This document shows, one piece after another, positions 6,664-18,850 of a stretch of 24,645 bases of DNA. Every line of letters starts with the position of its first letter. The first letter of the stretch is position 1. The notes below the pieces were generated by a model. The model was given only the letters and a program-made list of their open reading frames with translations, searched no databases and was not told where the DNA came from. This DNA comes from a virus, in IMG/VR virus record IMGVR_UViG_3300042868_003621, positions 1 through 24,645 of that record. One strand, given 5' to 3'. Made by a program: the position numbers and the translations under genes.

Positions 6664-8109
6664 TCACGCGGCATAAGGGTTATAAGCCCTGTTTCGCGCT
6701 ATGTCGTCTGCGTGTGCGTAGTCTCTTGGTGGTAGTGGGTCCAACTGGAGCCACCCTGAGTCGCGCAAGACGCGGAGGGCCTGAGATAATGCGTCAACGT
6801 AGTCGTCGTGGCCCTTTGCTTCGGGAAAAGAACACACTTGGCGGATAAAACGCTTGGCCCATGGGGCTACCTCGCCCGGGTTTTCTGGGTCTTCGGGGAT
6901 ATACACCCGTCCTTTTGCAATCAGCGGCGCCACAATGTTCATCCTTTGCACCTTGTCTGCTCGTCCGGGGTTGTATGACCTCACCGGCAGGTGCGCGGCC
7001 TGCAACTCTTGGATCAAAGAGATGCCCGCCGACTTATCTTCCATGAGGATCAGGTCCGTTTTCTTGCCTTTTGCGAACGTGTTGTCCGCGCCGTACACAA
7101 CTTCCTTATAGTCCTCAATCACCTTGCGGCGCAACTCGGGGTACGACAGGTGGTTGTCCCACGCGTCAAGCAATATGCAACTTGTCGCGAAGTCATCTTG
7201 CTCGAACACACCTAGCGCGATGCACGCGGTTGGGTCGTTGTGTGTTTTCTCACTTGTTGCTGGGTCGTATGACACCAGCACGTACTCCAGTGTTGGTGTC
7301 GCCTTGTGCGCTGGCCAACTCCTGAACCACCTGCGCTTGACAATACCCGCGTTCTCGGGGTCCAAGATCTCGCCGTAGATCTCCTGCTTGCCCAAGTCTG
7401 TGCCCTCGTAGGCCTCAAGCTGTTTGAAGAACGTCGACGACAGGTTGGCCCTGTTGTCGTATGAGGAGGCTCTGGACACGTACACGTCGCCGCCCACCTT
7501 GCCCTCGTTCAGGTCTGTGATAAGTTCCAGTGGTTTTGGCGTGGTGGTGATGATCGACTGCACACGGGCTATGCGCGGGTCAGTCAGGCGCAGTGTGAAC
7601 TGAATCTGGTCGTACGCGTCGTCAATGTACTCGAACGCGCACAACTCGTCTGCCCACATGCCGTGCCACTGTGTACCCCGGAAGCGCTCTGGCTCAGACG
7701 CCGGGATGCCGCGGATCATGCTTCCATTCTTCAACGTCAACTCAAACAGCGACTTGTTGTAGTCCTTGATCAGCGAAGAGGGTATGATGTTCAAGAGGCC
7801 CGAGTCACCCTCGAAGCACGTTGCCCGAATGTCGTTTGATGTTGGCGCCGTCACCAACCAGCGGGTCTTGTCGTAGATTGCCGCGCGCAAGCCTAACCAG
7901 TTTGACGCCGTGTGCGTCTTGCCCGAACCCCGGCCGGCTAAAAGCAAGAAGGTATCGTACTCCCCGTCGTCCGGCTCTCGTTGGTGGGGCAGGGCTGTTA
8001 GCTCCCACCTCACCCGCCACAGTGCCAGATCCAGTTGCTCTTTGGGCCACCCCTTGTTCTGTTCGGCAAACGCCTTGAGTAGTTTTTGCTGTGTGTCGTT
8101 CATAGGCAT
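6664..8109 (-). CDS. terL: Terminase large subunit (packaging ATPase-nuclease)
   Basis: This 481-aa protein is the motor that pumps DNA into the head and cuts it. ATPase domain: Walker A AGRGSGKT (residues 58-65), Walker B MWADE (151-155), coupling motif ITTTPKP (187-193). Nuclease domain: acidic residues in VLVSYDPA (Asp282), LMEDKSAG (Glu357) and GHDDYVDA (Asp435/436). Length and motif order are normal, with no intein inserted. Translation could begin at 8109 (MPMNDTQ) or at the ATG at 8103. The latter forms an ATGA overlap with the upstream Hint-like gene and may be the real start. The long Hint-like ORF immediately upstream is unusual. Confidence 0.95.
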   Translation of the reverse strand: MPMNDTQQKLLKAFAEQNKGWPKEQLDLALWRVRWELTALPHQREPDDGEYDTFLLLAGRGSGKTHTASNWLGLRAAIYDKTRWLVTAPTSNDIRATCFEGDSGLLNIIPSSLIKDYNKSLFELTLKNGSMIRGIPASEPERFRGTQWHGMWADELCAFEYIDDAYDQIQFTLRLTDPRIARVQSIITTTPKPLELITDLNEGKVGGDVYVSRASSYDNRANLSSTFFKQLEAYEGTDLGKQEIYGEILDPENAGIVKRRWFRSWPAHKATPTLEYVLVSYDPATSEKTHNDPTACIALGVFEQDDFATSCILLDAWDNHLSYPELRRKVIEDYKEVVYGADNTFAKGKKTDLILMEDKSAGISLIQELQAAHLPVRSYNPGRADKVQRMNIVAPLIAKGRVYIPEDPENPGEVAPWAKRFIRQVCSFPEAKGHDDYVDALSQALRVLRDSGWLQLDPLPPRDYAHADDIARNRAYNPYAA

Positions 8110-8972
8110 ACTGTCAGGTACCCCTCGCTAACTAGGAACGTGTTGTTTGGGTCTGCGGTTTTAATGTGCACGCAGGGTCTAATGTCCACACTGGTAACGT
8201 GGGTAACCCTGCGCATCTCCTCGTACTGAGGCCGACGCACCGGCATTTGGTCTTCGACCAGTTTTAGGTTTGTCCTGAACACCATGTGGTACTGGTGTTG
8301 GTGTTGTGCAATCTCTGTCCTGATACCAAGGGACTCTGTCAAATTGTGGATTGACCTGAACAGCCTCAGGTTTTTAATGTTGAACCTGAACTTGGCTGAG
8401 ACGCGGCTGTGGCACTTTGGCCTAGATGCACATACCCCTCGGAGTATAGCCAAGCGTTGCTCAAACGACGAGAACAGGTACTCTTCTGGAATGTGGTCTG
8501 GTATTTTGCCGTACGACTCGATCAGCTTGGATGTGACCTTTGTACGTTTGTCTCTGTGCGGGTCCCCTATCCACATCCCCATGTCGTAGGGGTGCAGGGG
8601 TAGCGGTTTGGCTGTGGGCCTGATCGGGTAGCACGTTGGCATCCTACACCACCCCGTCTCAACGGTTGATAGGTTCTGTGGTGCGTAGATAGGGAGAATG
8701 TAATCTTCTCGGGTTGGGACCTTGCGCCCCCACTTGGACAGTGTGAAGAATGCTTTACTGTCGTACACCGGAATGCCGGTGCGGCTATCCACCACCAACG
8801 TCAGGCCGTCCTTGGTCCAAATCTTATGACACACCACCGGCGTGTACTCTTGGACAGAAACAACCTTGACTGGCAGGCCCGTGTAATCAAAAACCTCATC
8901 CCCCGGTTTGATGAACCGCGCTAACTGCCATCCGGCAGTGGTGGGAATGGGGGTACGTGCGTCGATTCCCAT
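8100..8972 (-). CDS. Free-standing intein-derived Hint/LAGLIDADG-like protein upstream of terL
   Basis: This 290-aa protein reads like an intein without exteins. Residues 3-28 (IDARTPIPTTAGW, then KPGDEVF) match splicing block A, and the end FLVSEGYLTVCL matches blocks F-G. The middle resembles a degenerate two-motif LAGLIDADG homing endonuclease (YDMGMWIGDPH at 129-139 and QRLAILRGV at 172-180, followed by a LFRSIHNLTESLGI-type helix). The usual splicing residues are missing: Gly2 replaces the N-terminal nucleophile, VVDS replaces the block-B T-x-x-H, and the C-terminal His-Asn pair is absent. Protein splicing is therefore unlikely. It is the first gene of the minus operon and overlaps terL, with only a weak AGGG ribosome site. 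Its present function is unknown. Confidence 0.7.
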   Translation of the reverse strand: MGIDARTPIPTTAGWQLARFIKPGDEVFDYTGLPVKVVSVQEYTPVVCHKIWTKDGLTLVVDSRTGIPVYDSKAFFTLSKWGRKVPTREDYILPIYAPQNLSTVETGWCRMPTCYPIRPTAKPLPLHPYDMGMWIGDPHRDKRTKVTSKLIESYGKIPDHIPEEYLFSSFEQRLAILRGVCASRPKCHSRVSAKFRFNIKNLRLFRSIHNLTESLGIRTEIAQHQHQYHMVFRTNLKLVEDQMPVRRPQYEEMRRVTHVTSVDIRPCVHIKTADPNNTFLVSEGYLTVCL

Positions 8973-9189: not shown

Positions 9190-9387
9190 TTTTTAAAATT
9201 GAGTACCCATGACGTCACAAATAACCACGCTGACAGTAGGGTTGCTATACTCCCGGGGGTATATTGTAAAAAAATTTAGGGAAAGCACTTTTCGGCGGAT
9301 TTGTAAAAAACTTGCTGTCTGTAGGGGCCCCCCGCCCCGGTTACCCGATGGGACCCTAAATGGGGTGTCGCTAAAAAACAACGCCCC

Positions 9388-9670
9388 CTAGCAAGTATCA
9401 TGCCAACTTGGACAGCATACCCATACTGGTAGGGGTACCCTGCATACCCTACTGGGTATAGTACCCACTCAGCGCGATACCCTACTGGGTATAGTACCCA
9501 CTCAGCGCGATACCCTACCCAGTACAGTATGCAGGCCAAGCAGGCACGGATCTTGCTAGCCAAGCAAGAAGCATGCCAACGTGGACATGGCACCGATCTT
9601 GCTATTAGCAAGAAGCATGCCAAGGCACACTGGCACGTATGTTGCTATTAGCAAGAAGCATGCCAACGTG
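9388..9670. repeat. Cluster of tandem and nested inverted repeats
   Basis: Two repeat families lie together. First, a 33-bp unit beginning ATACCCTACTGGGTATAG occurs at 9444-9476 and 9477-9509, with an 11-bp partial third copy at 9510-9520. Each unit contains the self-complementary stretches TACCC/GGGTA and GGGTATAGTACCC. The block is bracketed by an inverted pair, CCTGCATAC (9439-9447) and GTATGCAGG (9527-9535). Second, a unit of about 43-46 bp with the hairpin CTTGCTATTAGCAAG followed by AAGCATGCCAA starts near 9552, 9598 and 9641, with a diverged half-copy (GCAAGTATCATGCCAA) at 9391. It could be a structured RNA, an origin or a repressor-binding array. Confidence 0.75.
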
Positions 9671-9689
9671 GCAAAGTGCATGAAACTTT

Positions 9690-9708
9690 AATGAGAATGA
9701 TTCGCATC
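9690..9708. promoter_or_regulatory. Fur-box-like operator
   Basis: AATGAGAATGATTCGCATC fits the 7-1-7 Fur site. On the opposite strand TGCGAAT-C-ATTCTCA matches 11 of the 14 half-site bases of TGATAAT-n-ATTATCA. It overlaps a possible -10 hexamer, TTTAAT, at 9687-9692, and lies about 155 bp upstream of the first early gene. Fur is the host iron-responsive repressor. Control of a phage early region by Fur would be unusual, so this is a sequence resemblance only. Confidence 0.4.
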
Positions 9709-9807: not shown

Positions 9808-9836
9808 TTCACCCCCAATTGACCATAGTAGTATCA
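9808..9836 (+). promoter_or_regulatory. Cassette leader, copy 1
   Basis: First of eight near-identical 28-29 nt elements (core CCCCCAATTGACCATAGTA, then GTATCA). It lies 55 nt before the ATG at 9863. The others start at 10055, 10401, 11087, 11875, 12293, 13133 and 14397. No correctly spaced sigma-70 -35/-10 pair is present. The TTGACCATAGTAG part distantly resembles SP6/T7-type phage promoters. It may be a phage promoter, a recombination-prone cassette boundary, or an RNA leader element. Confidence 0.75.
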
Positions 9837-9862
9837 GCAACCAAACCCCCAAGGAGCACAGC

Positions 9863-10054
9863 ATGCGCAAGATAGCAAACACAATCAACACAGCAACAGG
9901 CCACGAGACACGCGTCTATAAAGACGTCGAATGGAATGAGTACCGCGTCAAGCACTATGTCAACGGCCAACACTTGGTCGAGGCAGACTACCACACAGAC
10001 GACAAAGAAGAGGCCCTGCACCATGGTGCTGTGTGGCCGTTCAAGCCAAACTGA
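9863..10054 (+). CDS. Hypothetical 63-aa protein, first early cassette gene
   Basis: A small soluble protein with AAGGAGCACAGC before its ATG. The segment DVEWNEYRVKHYVNG followed by EADYHTDDKEEA resembles short phage proteins that I have seen without a known function, with a likely two-strand beta hairpin followed by a helix. No catalytic or metal motif and no membrane segment are visible. It follows cassette leader 1 and its TGA is directly abutted by leader 2. Being first after the control region, it is probably among the earliest expressed genes, which is inference. Confidence 0.75.
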   Translation: MRKIANTINTATGHETRVYKDVEWNEYRVKHYVNGQHLVEADYHTDDKEEALHHGAVWPFKPN

Positions 10055-10083
10055 TTCACCCCCAATTGACCATAGTAATATCA
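10055..10083 (+). promoter_or_regulatory. Cassette leader, copy 2
   Basis: Begins at the first base after the TGA of the preceding gene and lies 48 nt before the ATG at 10103. It has GTAATATCA where most copies have GTAGTATCA. AAGGAG follows. Confidence 0.75.
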
Positions 10084-10102
10084 CCAACCAAAGGAGCATT
10101 CC

Positions 10103-10360
10103 ATGATCACACTATTCAAGACAACATACGTGCCTGCCACTGACACAGAGGCCTGCTATTTTTTAGTCCAACGCATGGACGATTGGAGCAAGCCAGTGCG
10201 TTACTCTTACGAGTACAGCGCCAAGAATGCCGCACGTGCCGCGGCCTACCTGTGCGCGTCTGACCGTTCACCCGATTGGGCTCCAAACGACGAAGACGGC
10301 CTAGAGTATGTGGGCGCAGAGAAAGACGGCCTCACCTGCTATTTTGCAGTGAGCAAATGA
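10103..10360 (+). CDS. Hypothetical 85-aa protein
   Basis: A soluble mixed alpha/beta protein of unknown function. It has an AAGGAG site 7 nt before the ATG and is the only gene of cassette 2. Visible features are SAKNAARAAAYLCASD (probable helix), followed by the acidic stretch WAPNDEDGLEYVG and an ending TCYFAVSK. No family is recognised. The stop codon is followed at once by the 61-bp duplicated hairpin-plus-leader segment. Confidence 0.7.
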   Translation: MITLFKTTYVPATDTEACYFLVQRMDDWSKPVRYSYEYSAKNAARAAAYLCASDRSPDWAPNDEDGLEYVGAEKDGLTCYFAVSK

Positions 10361-10420
10361 TTGATGCGTGATGGCCTGCGTGCAGGCCATTGCAGATCAA
10401 TTCACCCCCAATTGACCATA
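10360..10420 (+). repeat. 61-bp direct repeat, copy 1 (hairpin plus leader start)
   Basis: Bases 10360-10420 recur exactly at 11046-11106. The segment carries the hairpin ATGGCCTGCGTGCAGGCCAT (10371-10390, 9-bp arms), then the first 20 bases of the cassette leader. The hairpin follows the stop codon of the 85-aa gene and could terminate or pause transcription, although no T run follows. An exact duplicate suggests recent duplication or recombination between cassettes. Confidence 0.85.
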
Positions 10421-10429
10421 GTAGTATCA
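10401..10429 (+). promoter_or_regulatory. Cassette leader, copy 3
   Basis: Consensus-type copy, partly inside the 61-bp direct repeat and 49 nt before the ATG at 10450. AAAGGAGCAAACC follows as ribosome site. Confidence 0.75.
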
Positions 10430-10449
10430 CCAACCAAAAGGAGCAAACC

Positions 10450-10659
10450 ATGAAAAACCTTATCGCATTTTCTCAGCGCATGCGCGCAATAGCCCACTAC
10501 TACCCAACCGAGTATGAAGTGGCTATATGGAATCCAACAACGCGACAGTGGTCAGGCATTGCAGTAAATTGCGATACCTGCTACGAAAAAGAGTTGGCCG
10601 CGGCCGCACTGGCCGACGGTGGCCGCATTTCCCGTCGCAACGGTTTCTTTACAAACTAA
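10450..10659 (+). CDS. Hypothetical 69-aa protein
   Basis: A small soluble protein. The start is the ATG after AAGGAGCAAACC. A longer in-frame ORF would run back through the cassette leader and is rejected. The sequence contains NLIAFSQRMRAIAHYYPTEY, then EVAIWNPTTRQWSGIAVNCD and an Ala-rich helix. The strand-turn-strand around the Trp residues suggests a beta hairpin, but no family is recognised. The next gene follows 10 nt after its stop, so the two probably share one transcript from leader 3. Confidence 0.7.
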   Translation: MKNLIAFSQRMRAIAHYYPTEYEVAIWNPTTRQWSGIAVNCDTCYEKELAAAALADGGRISRRNGFFTN

Positions 10660-10669
10660 GGAGCACAGC

Positions 10670-11050
10670 ATGATTAAATTCAGCAAGACAGTGCCGGACG
10701 GCCGGCACGTTACAGAGGCGCGTGATTGCACAGTGCGCGCACTGGCCCACGTGGCCGACATACCCTACAGCGAGGCACACGCGACCATGGCCGCATTCGG
10801 CCGCAAGCCACGCAAAGGTGTGCCTCGCATGGACGTGATCAGGGCCTACGCAAGCAAGGGCCTGACATACATCAAGCGCAACGACAGGCCAACATTGGCC
10901 CAATTTATGCGCGAGGATGGCGCCAAGCATGAGCGCCTAGTGATCAACAAAACCGGCCACGTGTTTGCCCTGATCAACGGCACGCAGTTGGACATGGCCA
11001 AGTGCGGACCACGTACCCGAGTGCAAGGGTATTACGTACCCGCAAATTGA
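10670..11050 (+). CDS. Papain-like cysteine-protease-fold protein (putative)
   Basis: This 126-aa protein shows a pattern common to small phage proteins of papain-like fold. Residues 19-26 DCTVRALA carry the candidate nucleophile Cys20 at the start of a helix. TGHVFALINGTQLDM (96-110) supplies candidate His97 with a polar residue (Asn103 or Asp108) in the following strand. The GRKPRKGVPRMDVI segment lies between. If active it would cleave a peptide or isopeptide bond, but many such phage proteins have no known substrate. The ATG at 10670 follows AAGGAGCACAGC. The 5' extension overlapping the previous gene is rejected. It is the second gene of cassette 3. Confidence 0.5.
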   Translation: MIKFSKTVPDGRHVTEARDCTVRALAHVADIPYSEAHATMAAFGRKPRKGVPRMDVIRAYASKGLTYIKRNDRPTLAQFMREDGAKHERLVINKTGHVFALINGTQLDMAKCGPRTRVQGYYVPAN

Positions 11051-11106
11051 TGCGTGATGGCCTGCGTGCAGGCCATTGCAGATCAATTCACCCCCAATTG
11101 ACCATA
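11046..11106 (+). repeat. 61-bp direct repeat, copy 2
   Basis: Exact duplicate of 10360-10420, including the hairpin ATGGCCTGCGTGCAGGCCAT at 11057-11076 and the start of leader 4. It begins within the last codons of the papain-like gene, whose stop (TGA 11048-11050) is supplied by the repeat. This again places the repeat boundary at a gene end. Confidence 0.85.
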
Positions 11107-11115
11107 TCAGTATCA
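11087..11115 (+). promoter_or_regulatory. Cassette leader, copy 4
   Basis: Variant copy reading CATATCAGTATCA at its 3' end. It lies 44 nt before the ATG at 11131, followed by CAGGAGAAACC. Confidence 0.75.
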
Positions 11116-11130
11116 ACAGGAGAAACCACC

Positions 11131-11874
11131 ATGAAAAAACCCACTGGCTTTGTTATTTATCGCGGACCCTCTTTGCTCGACGGCACACCCATTGTGGCCA
11201 TTGCCCTGCTGGGCTCCAGTAACCGTAAGACAGGCAATATGGTGCAGACATACATTCTGCGCGACGACATGCGTCCGACCTTGGCAGTGCAGACAGGCGC
11301 AGACAGCGCGATCTGCGGTAACTGCAAGCACAGACCATCGCTTGGTGGCGCGTGCTACGTGGTCGTGGCCCAAGGTCCTACAGTGGTGTTCAAAACCATG
11401 CAGGCAGGCAAGTACCCTGACGCACTGCCTGAAGACGTCGGCACACTGGTGGCCGGTCGCATGGTGCGTCTTGGCACGTATGGAGACCCTGCCGCAGTGC
11501 CTGCCTACGTGTGGCAGGACCTTACAGCACAGGCCGCAGGCCGCACAGGTTACACCCACCAATGGGCAAACGAGGCCCTGCCGATGGACCATCGCGCAGA
11601 CATTGCCAAGTTGACAATGGCCAGTGCGGACACAGTGGAAGAGGCCCAACAGGCACGCGCAAACGGCCTGCGATATTTTCGCATTCGCTTGGCCACCGAG
11701 GCCCTGCAAGATCGCGAATTTATCTGCCCTGCCTCAGAAGAGGCCGGCAAGCGCAAACTGTGTGACACATGCGGAGCATGCAATGGCACGACCAAGAGCA
11801 CAGGCGCAAGCCCAGTGATCATTGTCCACGGCAACAAGGCCCGACGTTTCAGCGAACAGCGCGCAAGCGCTTAA
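11131..11874 (+). CDS. Conserved phage protein with two cysteine clusters (DUF7227-like, tentative)
   Basis: This 247-aa protein is the largest in the cassette region. Visible marks are KTGNMVQTYILR (33-44), a first Cys group ICGNCKHR...GGACYV (Cys62, 65, 75), the stretch VVAQGPTVVFKTMQAGKYP, and a C-terminal group CPASEEAGKRKLCDTCGACNG split over Cys199, 211, 214 and 217. The C-x2-C-x2-C arrangement suggests a zinc or iron-sulfur site. The combination matches a widespread uncharacterised phage family that I recall as DUF7227; the number should be verified. Start chosen at the ATG after CAGGAGAAACCACC; an upstream in-frame start would cross the leader. No activity can be assigned. Confidence 0.65.
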   Translation: MKKPTGFVIYRGPSLLDGTPIVAIALLGSSNRKTGNMVQTYILRDDMRPTLAVQTGADSAICGNCKHRPSLGGACYVVVAQGPTVVFKTMQAGKYPDALPEDVGTLVAGRMVRLGTYGDPAAVPAYVWQDLTAQAAGRTGYTHQWANEALPMDHRADIAKLTMASADTVEEAQQARANGLRYFRIRLATEALQDREFICPASEEAGKRKLCDTCGACNGTTKSTGASPVIIVHGNKARRFSEQRASA

Positions 11875-11903
11875 TTCACCCCCAATTGACCATAGTAGTA
11901 TCA
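11875..11903 (+). promoter_or_regulatory. Cassette leader, copy 5
   Basis: Starts at the base after the TAA of the preceding gene. It lies 42 nt before the ATG at 11917, with CAGGAGAAAACC between. Confidence 0.8.
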
Positions 11904-11916
11904 ACAGGAGAAAACC

Positions 11917-12105
11917 ATGAAGACAATCACAATCACAGAGAAACAGTGGCGCGACCTAAACGTCAACCTGCTGTATGAAATGGCAGACTATTTGCTGACA
12001 GAGCACAGCGAGGCCCTGACACGCGAAGAGAAGACCGACACGCGCAACACGCTAAACGACGCGTTGCACCAGTACAGAAAAATCAAGGAGGCATTCAAAG
12101 CATGA
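11917..12105 (+). CDS. Hypothetical 62-aa helical protein
   Basis: A small, charged and apparently all-helical protein (ITEKQWRDLNVNLLYEMADY, then REEKTDTRNTLNDALHQYRK). No metal, catalytic or membrane motif is visible, and no family is recognised. It is the first gene of cassette 5 and couples by ATGA to a 31-aa membrane peptide that begins before its stop codon. Confidence 0.7.
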   Translation: MKTITITEKQWRDLNVNLLYEMADYLLTEHSEALTREEKTDTRNTLNDALHQYRKIKEAFKA

Positions 12106-12197
12106 AGTACCTTAGAGAATTTATCGAGGCCCTGATACTGGCCGCCATCATTGGTGGCCCGTTTTTCTACTATTTACTGTACGTAATGAAACCATGA
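12102..12197 (+). CDS. 31-aa predicted membrane peptide
   Basis: An ORF begins at the ATG of an ATGA overlap with the previous gene and ends at TGA 12195-12197. One hydrophobic segment, about residues 9-29 (EALILAAIIGGPFFYYLLYV), would span the inner membrane, with charged residues before it and a short KP end. AAGGAGG lies upstream inside the previous gene. Small membrane peptides of this type in phages may act in lysis, superinfection exclusion or host takeover, but nothing here decides. It couples by ATGA to the next small gene. Confidence 0.6.
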   Translation: MKYLREFIEALILAAIIGGPFFYYLLYVMKP

Positions 12198-12292
12198 AAA
12201 ACTGGCCATTCCCCCCATTCCCAAACCCCAAAGACAAGGGCACCAAAGTGCCCCGATTCAACCCCGATAATTTCGAGGACGCGCCCTTTTAA
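12194..12292 (+). CDS. 32-aa proline-rich protein ending in an SSB-like C-terminal tail
   Basis: Starts by ATGA overlap with the membrane peptide; its TAA is abutted by leader 6. The protein has a Trp/Pro/Phe-rich start (MKNWPFPPFPNP), a basic middle (KDKGTKVPRF) and ends FEDAPF. An acidic residue followed by x-Pro-Phe at the very C-terminus is the hallmark of bacterial SSB, whose tip DDDIPF binds many repair and replication proteins. A second cassette protein ends EEFEDIPF. The tail could compete with or imitate SSB for host partners such as exonuclease I, RecO or PriA, which is inference. The protein is too short to be an SSB itself. Confidence 0.6.
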   Translation: MKNWPFPPFPNPKDKGTKVPRFNPDNFEDAPF

Positions 12293-12321
12293 TTAACCCC
12301 CAATTGACCATAGTAGTATCA
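12293..12321 (+). promoter_or_regulatory. Cassette leader, copy 6
   Basis: Starts directly after a TAA stop and reads TTAACC instead of TTCACC at its 5' end. It lies 47 nt before the ATG at 12340, with CAGGAGCACACC between. Confidence 0.8.
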
Positions 12322-12339
12322 ACAACACAGGAGCACACC

Positions 12340-12615
12340 ATGACACTGCAACCATACACAAGCCACGTCAATGGCTTTATCCACTACAAGCACATGGCCG
12401 AGACGGCCGCCAAGGCCGCAAACAGTGCCGCACATGGCGTGTGCGTTACTGTGGACTACTTCAACGGAGAATATAAGTTCGTCATTTGGACCTTGGCGCC
12501 CAAAGTGCGCGACGGCCTGATTAAGCACGAATTATTCGCAGAGACCACAAACCAAGAGCGCCTAAATGCGCACGTTATTGGTTTTGCCCAACAATACGAA
12601 AGACACTTACCATGA
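12340..12615 (+). CDS. Hypothetical 91-aa protein
   Basis: A soluble alpha/beta protein: an Ala-rich helix (HMAETAAKAANSAAHG), a strand pair (VCVTVDYFNGEYKFVIWTLA) and a C-terminal helix. No known family is recognised. The start follows CAGGAGCACACC; an in-frame ATG within the leader is rejected. It ends in an ATGA overlap with the next gene and is the first gene of cassette 6. Confidence 0.7.
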   Translation: MTLQPYTSHVNGFIHYKHMAETAAKAANSAAHGVCVTVDYFNGEYKFVIWTLAPKVRDGLIKHELFAETTNQERLNAHVIGFAQQYERHLP

Positions 12616-12806
12616 GAAAATTTCCACTGTACATCATTGACAGAGCAGGCCAGTTCACGACGCAAGAATTCCCATCGTACGAGGAGCAGTGCGCGGCCGC
12701 GGACAAGTGGGAGGCCGATGGCCACGAGACCTACTTTAACTACCTTAACGCGGTCCTGCGTTACGACCACTACAAACGATTCGACAAAGCACAAGGAGCA
12801 AAATAA
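12612..12806 (+). CDS. Hypothetical 64-aa protein
   Basis: A small acidic-to-neutral protein (KFPLYIIDRAGQFTTQEFPS, then YEEQCAAADKWEADGHETYF and a basic end). It is tightly coupled: ATGA overlap at its start, and a TAATG overlap at its end that shares one base with the next gene. AAGGAG near the end serves the next gene. No motif or family is recognised. Confidence 0.65.
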   Translation: MRKFPLYIIDRAGQFTTQEFPSYEEQCAAADKWEADGHETYFNYLNAVLRYDHYKRFDKAQGAK

Positions 12807-13132
12807 TGAACGCGCACCAATCAGCATACGAGCAGGGCAAGATGGACAAGTGGGACCGCATCACGCGCACCATGGACGAAGTGAGAGCACACCACGAGGC
12901 CGGCAAGTACGTGGTGATTTTCGAATCCCTGTCTTACTGCCCCTACACCGACGCGCCCATGGGCACCATGCCCCACGTGCTCAAGGCCTGCAAGACACGT
13001 AAAGAGGCCGAGGCACTGGTCAACGACTACTTTGAAGAGAATATCGACCACGACGTGTGGGACGTTTACATCTACCCAAAGTACAAAGCGCCTAAACAAT
13101 CAACAGAAGAATTTGAGGATATCCCTTTTTAA
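12806..13132 (+). CDS. 108-aa protein ending in an SSB-like tail (EEFEDIPF)
   Basis: The N-terminal part (about residues 1-95) is an unrecognised alpha/beta domain with an AYEQGKMDKWDRITRTMDEV helix, the strand YVVIFESLSYC and a KTRKEAEALVNDYFEEN helix. A charged linker (KYKAPKQST) then leads to the C-terminus EEFEDIPF, nearly the tip of E. coli SSB (DDDIPF). The codons differ from those of the FEDAPF tail at 12272-12289 (for example GAT versus GAC and CCT versus CCC), so protein-level constraint is plausible. The tail may recruit host SSB-binding proteins. The stop is abutted by leader 7. The start follows AAGGAGCAAA. Confidence 0.7.
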   Translation: MNAHQSAYEQGKMDKWDRITRTMDEVRAHHEAGKYVVIFESLSYCPYTDAPMGTMPHVLKACKTRKEAEALVNDYFEENIDHDVWDVYIYPKYKAPKQSTEEFEDIPF

Positions 13133-13160
13133 TTCACCCCCAATTGACCATAGTAGTACA
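13133..13160 (+). promoter_or_regulatory. Cassette leader, copy 7
   Basis: Starts directly after the TAA of the SSB-tailed gene. It is one base shorter at the 3' end (GTAGTACA) and lies 50 nt before the ATG at 13183, with AGGAGCAAACC between. Confidence 0.8.
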
Positions 13161-13182
13161 ACCAACCAAATAGGAGCAAACC

Positions 13183-13536
13183 ATGAACAGAACATATTGG
13201 ACAGGCCAAGGCCGCTACCAAGCGCAGGCCGACGCGTTAGAGAAGCTTCTGCCCATCGTGGGCGAGGTGGAGGACGGCAAGGGCGCCAACAAGCACCTAG
13301 AGGCATTCAGGCGCGCAGTTAACTGCTACTATGACCTGTACAACAACGGCCTGTGCAACAGGGCACGTGAGTTCAGCACAGTGTTCAAAATTACAGGCGT
13401 GGCCAAAGAGATTAAAGCACGTCGGTGGATGGACAGCATGCTATCGATGGACACACAAGAGCGCATCGAGGACAAGATGGGCCTGTTTATACTGGCCGCG
13501 TTTCAAGAGCAATTTGCAGAGGAGACAACAGCATGA
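13183..13536 (+). CDS. Hypothetical 117-aa helical protein
   Basis: Mostly helical and soluble. Visible stretches are YQAQADALEKLLPIVGEVED, HLEAFRRAVNCYYDLYNNGL, and EFSTVFKITGVAKEIK, followed by an amphipathic C-terminal helix (LFILAAFQEQFAEE). The pattern resembles small conserved phage proteins without assigned role. It follows leader 7 and AGGAGCAAACC and ends in an ATGA overlap with the next gene. No catalytic residues stand out. Confidence 0.7.
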   Translation: MNRTYWTGQGRYQAQADALEKLLPIVGEVEDGKGANKHLEAFRRAVNCYYDLYNNGLCNRAREFSTVFKITGVAKEIKARRWMDSMLSMDTQERIEDKMGLFILAAFQEQFAEETTA

Positions 13537-13775
13537 GCACGACCAAAGAAAATGTTGTGGTGTGGTTTGGCATGATGACACATGGCCAGTTTGGCGTGAC
13601 AGAGCACGACATTGAGCCCATGGTGATCATTCATTCAATCGACAACAAGGCCATCATGGACCCCGACGAGATCGAGGACTACATGGCCCTGCGCCATTAC
13701 GACAGTTATTTAATCCCGTCCCAGTTTGTGGGGTACGTCACATATTCGTCAGACTACATAAGGAACCTACCATGA
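13533..13775 (+). CDS. Hypothetical 80-aa protein
   Basis: The start is the ATG that overlaps the previous stop; a longer in-frame reading from 13425 is only open reading in the preceding gene. The product has a beta-rich N-terminus (NVVVWFGMMTHGQFGVTEHD), an acidic middle (DPDEIEDYMALRHYD) and a short beta end (VGYVTYSSDYIR). It is probably a small beta-domain protein. No family is recognised. AGGAGAC lies ahead of the start, and it ends by ATGA overlap with the next gene. Confidence 0.7.
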   Translation: MSTTKENVVVWFGMMTHGQFGVTEHDIEPMVIIHSIDNKAIMDPDEIEDYMALRHYDSYLIPSQFVGYVTYSSDYIRNLP

Positions 13776-14101
13776 TTAAAGTAGATAAATACAACGTGCG
13801 CATTGTGCGCGCAGGCGACCGGTACGGCCGCGATTTTTGCCTGACCCACGACAAAGAGGACCAACCATTGGTCGAGTTCTATGACAGCCGGTACCCTCAC
13901 ACCGAGTACGGCCAGTTTGTCAGCCGGTACTACGTGGCAACGATCCTAGGCACCGACCGGTGGGGCAGTGGCGAAGGCGCCCTGATCCTAGACGGTGGCA
14001 ATCGCGCCCAATGGACGGTCAGCGAAGAGGACATGAAAACAGTTCGCAATTATTTAAAAGAGGAGACGAGCGATGCAAATCATTCATATTACGGGGCCTG
14101 A
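13772..14101 (+). CDS. Conserved phage protein of unknown function (109 aa)
   Basis: Recognisable elements are VEFYDSRYPHTEYGQFVSRY, followed by YVATILG, ALILDGGN and the ending WTVSEEDMKTVRNYL. The GQFVSRYYV and WTVS...M..V..YL pattern recurs in short phage proteins of unknown function, which I recall only in general terms. The predicted fold is beta-rich with a C-terminal helix. It starts by ATGA overlap and overlaps the next gene by 29 nt, longer than usual here. The next gene's AGGAGACG site lies inside it. Confidence 0.7.
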   Translation: MIKVDKYNVRIVRAGDRYGRDFCLTHDKEDQPLVEFYDSRYPHTEYGQFVSRYYVATILGTDRWGSGEGALILDGGNRAQWTVSEEDMKTVRNYLKEETSDANHSYYGA

Positions 14102-14396
14102 AAAGCAGACAGTGGCCTACAAGCATTTGGTCGACCACATGTTGGCCAAGGGTTTCACCATTTCAGTGTTTGATGGTGAGGAGTGGCAGGTTAAGCGATC
14201 GACCGACGCAAAGGCCATCGACGAGGCCATTCTGTCGGTGGAGGAGGCCGAGTTGTCGATTCGCGACAAGGACAACAAGAGCCAAGGGTGGGCGCGAGTG
14301 AGTGCTTACGGGCTTGAGCCGGACGAAACGGTCATGGACAACACCATGACTGACGCAATGAACGAGTGGGACGGTGCGTACGACGCCATGCCCTAA
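14073..14396 (+). CDS. Hypothetical 107-aa protein, last of cassette 7
   Basis: An acidic alpha/beta protein (IIHITGPEKQTVAYKHLVDH, then MLAKGFTISVFDGEEWQVKR, and an IDEAILSVEEAELSIRDKDN helix). The KHLVDHMLAKGFTISVFDGEEW segment looks like a helix-strand-strand unit. The C-terminal part (ETVMDNTMTDAMNEWDGAYD) is strongly acidic. No family is recognised. AGGAGACGAGCG precedes its ATG inside the previous gene. Its TAA is abutted by leader 8. Confidence 0.7.
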   Translation: MQIIHITGPEKQTVAYKHLVDHMLAKGFTISVFDGEEWQVKRSTDAKAIDEAILSVEEAELSIRDKDNKSQGWARVSAYGLEPDETVMDNTMTDAMNEWDGAYDAMP

Positions 14397-14424
14397 TTCA
14401 CCCCCAGTTGACCATATTAGTACA
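14397..14424 (+). promoter_or_regulatory. Cassette leader, copy 8
   Basis: Most diverged copy (CAGTTGACCATATTAGTACA). It starts directly after a TAA stop and lies 40 nt before the ATG at 14437, overlapping the ribosome-site region AAAGGAG. It begins the longest cassette, of ten genes. Confidence 0.75.
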
Positions 14425-14436
14425 AAGGAGCAAACC

Positions 14437-18165: not shown

Positions 18166-18329
18166 AACTATACGACGTACCGAGAAACAGCACGATCATT
18201 TTACAAAATGGCGAGGAGTTGGAGTTCAAGCACATTGACGGCATGTACTCTTACTGTGTGACCAAAGAGGGCAACGTGGTGCACTTGGCCGCGTGGTCCG
18301 AGGTTAAAGTTAAAGAGCCTGAACAATGA
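18162..18329 (+). CDS. Small hypothetical protein (55 aa) before the sigma factor
   Basis: The ORF opens in an ATGA overlap with the previous gene and ends in one with the sigma factor gene. AAGGAAAC precedes its ATG. The product is a short beta-rich polypeptide (YDVPRNSTIILQNGEELEFK, then MYSYCVTKEGNVVHLAAWSE), looking like a minimal SH3-like or Sm-like beta fold, which is a guess. Translational coupling to the sigma gene may make it part of that expression unit. Confidence 0.6.
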   Translation: MKLYDVPRNSTIILQNGEELEFKHIDGMYSYCVTKEGNVVHLAAWSEVKVKEPEQ

Positions 18330-18850
18330 GACGACAGCTACTGACAGCGCAGGAGGAGATCGACCTACACCACAGGATCGTGCAGGGTGACGAGGAGGCC
18401 CACGAGGCCTTGGTGGAGGCCAACATGGGCCTTGTGGTGTACATTGTGCAGAAGTTGCCGCAGTGGGACATGACGGGGAGCATGACACGAGACGACCTAC
18501 TGCAGGAGGGCTACATTGCCCTGATGAAGGCCGCACACAGGTGGAAGCCGCAGGGAAGGTTTGCAAGCTACGCGCGCACACTGATCAAGAGCCAAGTGCT
18601 CAGAGCCATTGAGAACAAGGCCCTGCTGATCCACGTGCCGGTGGCGGTGCAGGAGGACCTGCGCAAGATCAAGCGGGTGGAGACCGAGTTGGCCCAAGTG
18701 CTCAACAGGGAGCCAACCACCAAAGAGGTGGCCAAGCTGACAGGTTTGTCAGAGCAACGCGTGCGTGATAGACTGGTGGTGAGTCAGAGGCAACCGGTGT
18801 CACTAGACGCGTACAAGAAAGACCAAGTAACGGAAGAAGACTATGATTGA
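18326..18850 (+). CDS. Phage RNA polymerase sigma-70-family factor lacking region 4
   Basis: This 174-aa protein has region 1.2-like sequence at residues 6-40 (LTAQEEIDLHHRIVQGDEEA), region 2 at about 40-100, including DDLLQEGYIALMKAAHRW and GRFASYARTLIKSQVLRAIE, and a region-3-like segment at about 105-155 (VETELAQVLNREPTTKEVAK, then LTGLSEQRVRDRL). There is no region 4 helix-turn-helix for the -35 element; the protein ends with an acidic tail. It should bind host core RNA polymerase and recognise -10 or extended -10 DNA, steering transcription to phage genes, as phage sigma factors such as that of phiEco32 do. The start overlaps the previous stop. It overlaps the next gene by 8 nt. Confidence 0.9.
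   Translation: MRRQLLTAQEEIDLHHRIVQGDEEAHEALVEANMGLVVYIVQKLPQWDMTGSMTRDDLLQEGYIALMKAAHRWKPQGRFASYARTLIKSQVLRAIENKALLIHVPVAVQEDLRKIKRVETELAQVLNREPTTKEVAKLTGLSEQRVRDRLVVSQRQPVSLDAYKKDQVTEEDYD

Follow-up and report, generated by a model that had tools for sequence, protein, structure and literature searches.

The early protein P108 (108 aa) of an uncultured virus ends in a short acidic tip of the kind that terminates bacterial SSB (SSB-Ct), and coding-sequence comparisons indicate that this tail is held by purifying selection. We consider it rather probable that P108 is a functional SSB-Ct mimic on a non-SSB scaffold which acts in trans; its tip probably grabs or distracts the host DNA-repair machinery.

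Genomic context of the P108 gene

The window (the whole stretch of DNA analysed, a 24.6-kb uncultured virus record) contains a terminase gene whose product shows 53% identity to Manatee Spring caudovirus and 40–42% to Caulobacter phages. A P4-type primase-helicase precedes its right end. At a divergence point near 9.7 kb the gene orientation changes, with structural genes running leftward and early genes rightward. The early genes are grouped in cassettes, many of which are opened by the near-identical element CCCCAATTGACCATAGTAGT; it is present in eight copies in the window, where none would be expected by chance. The features of the region around P108 are listed below by window position.

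12102..12197, + strand: 31-aa hydrophobic protein, probably single-pass membrane; stop/start overlap with the 32-aa ORF; conserved in relatives
12194..12292, + strand: 32-aa protein WPFP...NPDNFEDAPF; SSB-like tip not conserved; outside the proposed mechanism
12298..12317, + strand: cassette element CCCCAATTGACCATAGTAGT, 5′ of the P108 cassette
12340..12615, + strand: 91-aa gene, the first gene in the P108 cassette
12612..12806, + strand: 64-aa gene immediately 5′ of P108, same cassette, with stop/start overlap
12806..13132, + strand: P108, 108-aa early protein; ORF with an AGGAG ribosome-binding site; orthologues in syntenic position
13079..13108, + strand: variable linker 5′ of the tip (residues 92–101), from the alignment; pN/pS 0.60
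13109..13129, + strand: SSB-Ct-like tip EFEDIPF (residues 102–108); conserved as [DE]F[DE]D[IL]P[FY]; pN/pS 0.12
13138..13157, + strand: cassette element 3′ of P108, opening the next cassette

The 64-aa gene upstream of P108 is a conserved neighbour (pN/pS 0.10). The original prediction had placed SSB-type tails on two early proteins, encoded at 12194 and 12806. Both C-termini are present as described: the ORF at 12194–12292 ends NFEDAPF and that at 12806–13132 ends EEFEDIPF, and the two are written with different synonymous codons (F TTC/TTT, D GAC/GAT, P CCC/CCT). The additional statement that each gene is the last of its cassette applies to the window, where both stop codons abut the next element (12298–12317 and 13138–13157), but not to the relatives L002 and L003, in which the element is gone and a ribosome-binding site directly follows the 108-aa gene.

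Several further features of the window were recorded. The sequence TTCACCCCCAATTGACCATAGTAGTATCA opens early cassettes about 30 nt 5′ of the first start codon (8 copies at window positions 9809–14425; L001–L006). Inspection by eye revealed no sigma-70 −10 sequence at the usual spacing from TTCACCCCCAATTGACCATAGTAGTATCA, which may be a phage-specific promoter or an mRNA leader. A sigma-70-like factor with regions 2 and 3 is encoded among the early genes (18326–18850), and may read the cassette element. The hairpin GATGGCCTGCGTGCAGGCCATTGC (−22.8 kcal/mol, z −4.1) is found at 10360–10401 and 11047–11088; at these two window sites, and at many sites in relatives, it lies immediately 5′ of the cassette element and is perhaps a terminator or processing signal adjoining a start signal.

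The stretch at 9276–9691, between the divergent gene blocks, is repetitive (repeated PVGYRAEWVLY / HACFLL-type reading frames), possibly a tandem-repeat region. Among the structural genes, that for a 152-aa protein (1189–1647, − strand) gives a weak Cpn10 (GroES) match (E 1.2e-5), and a phage co-chaperonin is possible. A 290-aa ORF (8100–8972, − strand), overlapping the terminase gene at its start, has a Hint/intein-type look by eye and is without a Pfam match.

Conservation of the P108 tail

Composition alone would give about 2e-5 of proteins an acidic (≥3 of 6) x-P-F C-terminus, so that a single example among about 60 genes is already unlikely; the decisive test, however, is conservation. 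The comparison comprised 12 distinct P108 sequences, the orthologues being 50–96% identical to P108 and taken from close relatives spanning the locus. The tip [DE]F[DE]D[IL]P[FY] is kept in all 12, in the forms EFEDIPF, EFDDIPF, DFEDIPF, DFDDIPF, DFDDLPF and, once, DFEDIPY (L005). Near-invariant are the proximal Phe, the Pro and the terminal Phe, while the variation consists of Asp/Glu and Ile/Leu exchanges. The tip retains this pattern even though the linkers vary in both length and sequence and identity in the body drops to about 50%.

In the tail, pS is 0.65 and pN 0.08 (ratio 0.12), compared with 0.41 and 0.18 in the body (ratio 0.45). Neighbouring genes served as controls. The tails of p117, p91 and p95 are relaxed (ratios 2.0, 0.6 and 0.7), while p84 and tm31 are conserved through the C-terminus as well. 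The protein-level constraint that had been claimed for the 108-aa tail is thus borne out by codon statistics. In L002 and L003 the downstream cassette element has been lost and the P108 tail is recoded yet kept, which argues against the tail being a by-product of the element DNA. This origin was also rejected on a second ground: TTTTAATT, which is common to the two genes, is absent from the other copies of the element.

We regard it as highly improbable that the tail is accidental and functionless. A similar-looking end can indeed be accidental, as the 32-aa protein illustrates, and conserved C-termini exist in some neighbours too; but the constraint on the P108 tail far exceeds that on the body, it persists through synonymous recoding next to a freely varying linker, and the tail is kept in two remote lineages (see below). 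The conservation itself already makes chance unlikely.

Replacement of D by E or of I by L in the SSB-Ct octapeptide DFDDDIPF is tolerated by ExoI and RecO or is favourable (PMC10143822). The substitutions in the 12 P108 tips match those that the two proteins tolerate (PMC10143822), with one F-to-Y exception; the SSB tip of the host is assumed.

The 32-aa protein

The orthologues of the 32-aa protein keep WPFP...P[KR]FNPDNxEDAP. The last residue is F only in the window, L006 and L110; otherwise it is M (L001–L004), L (L005, L010, L095, L109), I (L027) or R (L011, L097, L100). With pN/pS of 0.34 in the last six codons and 0.25 in the body, the end is no more conserved than the rest of the protein. 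Judged from these alignments, there is no constraint on the terminal Phe, the defining residue of an SSB tip. The SSB-type tip attributed to this protein thus failed the conservation test, and with a terminal residue of F, L, M, I or R among orthologues it was rejected as a second SSB mimic. Conservation of the tails among homologues, set beforehand as the test that could refute the prediction, was found for the 108-aa protein and not for the 32-aa protein.

The WPFP...(P.FNPDNxE.AP) module occurs as the stand-alone 32-aa protein and also as the C-terminus of 45–82-aa proteins in related phages. It ends the longer proteins L069, L071, L073 and L144 and was also noted in L030 and L165; some of the longer proteins carry EAGKGDSQRPTDH..YAENYDKIF.

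Predicted structure of P108

An AlphaFold (AF2) model of P108 based on 11 sequences has a pLDDT of 83, with 55–66 in the tail. It contains a helix (residues 3–31), a hairpin (35–62), a second helix (65–78) and a strand (84–90), followed by the low-confidence tail; P108 is thus predicted to fold into a small alpha/beta domain from which a disordered tail extends. A core motif, [YF]CPxTDA, is conserved. P108 gave no Pfam match even at E 0.1, and hence neither PF00436 nor PF10991, and no convincing PHROG match. Searching BFVD and the PDB with the model by Foldseek returned no match at E ≤ 0.001; the top hit of VIA-align (Z 4.5) was to a designed protein and is uninformative. The absent Pfam match and the predicted model are consistent with the original view that the protein has no OB-fold. 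P108 was not found in bacterial genomes or plasmids. A reading of the tail as a beta-clamp motif was discarded, as no QxxLF-like sequence was seen there by eye.

P108 might be an unrecognised ssDNA-binding protein of non-OB fold which has acquired an SSB-type tail. Many of the assignable tail-bearing phage proteins are ssDNA-binding proteins, but P108 is acidic overall (pI 5.1; 13 K+R versus 20 D+E), and the lack of a Pfam, a convincing PHROG and a significant fold match also speaks against this function, which we consider improbable.

The SSB of the clade

Neither the window nor 32 related records yielded a PF00436 SSB, and a canonical SSB for the P108 clade was rejected; the SSB of the clade belongs to PF10991. 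The near-complete relative G008 encodes such an SSB (Enc34/T7 gp2.5-type; 11030–11602, L172, E 8e-65) and also a DUF2800 PD-(D/E)XK nuclease, a family A polymerase and an SNF2-type helicase. A search for a phage SSB with the same tail as P108 led to a PF10991 protein in relatives with a different one: most of the 46 homologous ORFs end SAAxDFAV, possibly a docking motif of its own. It follows that P108, rather than the phage SSB, carries the SSB-type tip.

Remote homologues of P108

A tblastn search with a P108 orthologue identified gp201 of the Tunturiibacter jumbo phage Tunturi_5 (E 9e-6, 51% over 46 aa). This protein of an acidobacterial phage has the C-terminus SREDYCPF, without the I/L. 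When IMG/VR was scanned with only the tail pattern, at least 119 stretches matched. Among the matches listed, the mutually identical L195 and L199 have a body homologous to P108 (30% identity) including the core [YF]CPxTDA. The protein is 121 aa long, is encoded on contig L304 and ends LDFDDIPF. Its gene immediately precedes two others, one YqaJ-like (E 8e-4, barely under the curated cut-off) and one of the RecT family (E 1e-9). Since L195 was picked up through its tail, the independent evidence it offers is confined to the similarity in the body; for gp201, picked up through the body, it is the tail that counts as independent. Taken together, these alignments link the P108-type domain with an acidic P-F tail across three phage lineages.

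P108 was not detected in the more distant relatives G012, G025 and G029, which have the same type of primase and SSB. This indicates an accessory protein, and suits a host-interaction or anti-host role better than that of a core replisome adaptor.

The acidic Phe-ending tails of T7 gp2.5 and gp4 dock on the phage's own machinery. The P108 tail could similarly dock on the phage family A DNA polymerase, primase-helicase or annealing protein, which would make P108 a replication or recombination accessory factor. Such a role would fit the SSB-type tails on T7-type helicase-primases and gp2.5-like SSBs elsewhere, the YqaJ/RecT-type genes that adjoin the homologue on L304, and the occurrence of a family A polymerase with an Enc34-type SSB in the near-complete relative. 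It is nevertheless unlikely, given the three relatives in which the same primase and SSB type are found and P108 is not detected, and given a phage SSB that ends SAAxDFAV and has no IPF tip.

SSB-type tips on other phage proteins

Among the IMG/VR matches listed, the tail pattern ends canonical and gp2.5-like SSBs, small ssDNA-binding proteins annotated by PHROG, T7-type helicase-primases and several unknown families. Also among the matches listed, the phage-borne canonical SSBs L212, L258 and L194 end in heptapeptides identical to P108 tips, and the gp2.5-like SSB L189 ends DFDDIPF. With SSB-type tails at the end of several other phage protein families, the initial claim of a wholly new strategy was too strong.

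Seven helicase-primases (L196, L198, L210, L224, L244, L272, L302; 540–551 aa) end EFDDIPF or DFDDIPF. L196 has the T7-type combination of DnaB_C plus Toprim, an instance of an SSB-type tip on a helicase. Proteins of 69–88 aa (L206, L214, L216, L204, L218, L263) that start like YDNTNRG...KN...TG...VDG.EY.. also end in SSB-type tips, and L206 matches PHROG ssDNA-binding families.

The census suggests SSB-type tails on several uncharacterised phage protein families, and the tip may thus serve as a search handle for host-takeover and recombination factors.

Proposed mode of action

In E. coli, at least 17 genome-maintenance proteins have their main docking point in the last residues of SSB (PMC10018359). 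The I-P-F of SSB-Ct is bound in one pocket, to which ExoI and RecO add a second spot for the proximal Phe/acidic segment (PMC10143822). A phage recombinase can be recruited by a PF-type phage SSB tail, as in the case of NDYPPF of the HK620 SSB and Sak4 (PMC5928155).

We propose that in P108 a folded alpha/beta domain with the [YF]CPxTDA core is joined by a flexible linker to the tip [DE]F[DE]D-I/L-P-F. We infer that on SSB-binding proteins this tip would occupy both the pocket for IPF and the second, Phe/acidic site, candidate partners being ExoI, RecO, PriA, RecQ, RecG, Pol III chi or a phage annealing protein. P108 could then be a two-ended adaptor: the domain would hold one partner, and the tail would bring an SSB-binding enzyme or remove the enzyme from SSB. 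The adaptor is favoured because the folded core, besides the tip, is conserved across three phage lineages.

It is only slightly favoured over a pure competitive decoy, which we place second. As a decoy, abundant early P108 would fill the SSB-binding pockets of ExoI, RecO, RecJ, RecQ and PriA and so block them, the domain only stabilising the protein. P108 has suitable properties, being small, acidic (pI 5.1), accessory and encoded in the early region, with a tip of the type that ExoI and RecO bind. Single SSB-Ct peptides, however, compete for ExoI and RecO with an IC50 of about 5 µM (PMC10143822), so that a decoy would need high expression; this micromolar affinity of a single tip would be set against host SSB with several tips. 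Conservation of the [YF]CPxTDA core over three lineages also goes beyond the need of a passive carrier, and on balance a decoy appears somewhat unlikely.

For P108 as a mimic acting through its tip, a wider proposal is more tentative and open to doubt: P108 may be the founding member of a family of stand-alone mimics of the SSB tail, comprising small non-SSB effectors in unrelated phages that would redirect or disable host repair and recombination enzymes via the SSB hub. Carried by a phage on an unrelated scaffold, the tip would demonstrate exploitation of this hub during infection as well. P108 is a small, easily expressed protein in which a one-residue deletion would test the tip, and SSB-tip mimics are under study as antibacterial leads (PMC10143822).

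Comparison with known systems

The SSB-type tip is already known as a docking device in phages. In the part of the open-access literature covered, we did not find an SSB-Ct mimic described for any non-SSB phage protein, and a non-SSB early protein family with such a tip, conserved across unrelated phages, appears to be undescribed in the open-access literature searched.

With bacterial SSB (PF00436; E. coli DFDDDIPF), P108 shares the acidic residues, the proximal Phe, the terminal I/L-P-F and the disordered linker. It differs in having no match to the SSB profile, a predicted model without OB barrel (helix-hairpin-helix-strand) and one acidic residue fewer than the E. coli tip between the two Phe. 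P108 is unrelated in sequence to the Enc34 ORF6 / T7 gp2.5-type SSB (PF10991), which in this clade has the tail SAAxDFAV. The HK620 phage SSB tail (NDYPPF), which recruits Sak4, is likewise PF-ending, as is Tunturi_5 gp201 with EDYCPF; in HK620, however, the tail is carried by a true SSB bound to ssDNA, whereas P108 is no SSB by profile tests. The T7 gp4-type helicase-primases (L196, L198) are, like P108, non-SSB phage proteins with an SSB-type tip, but P108 is small, without known domain, and encoded outside the replication module.
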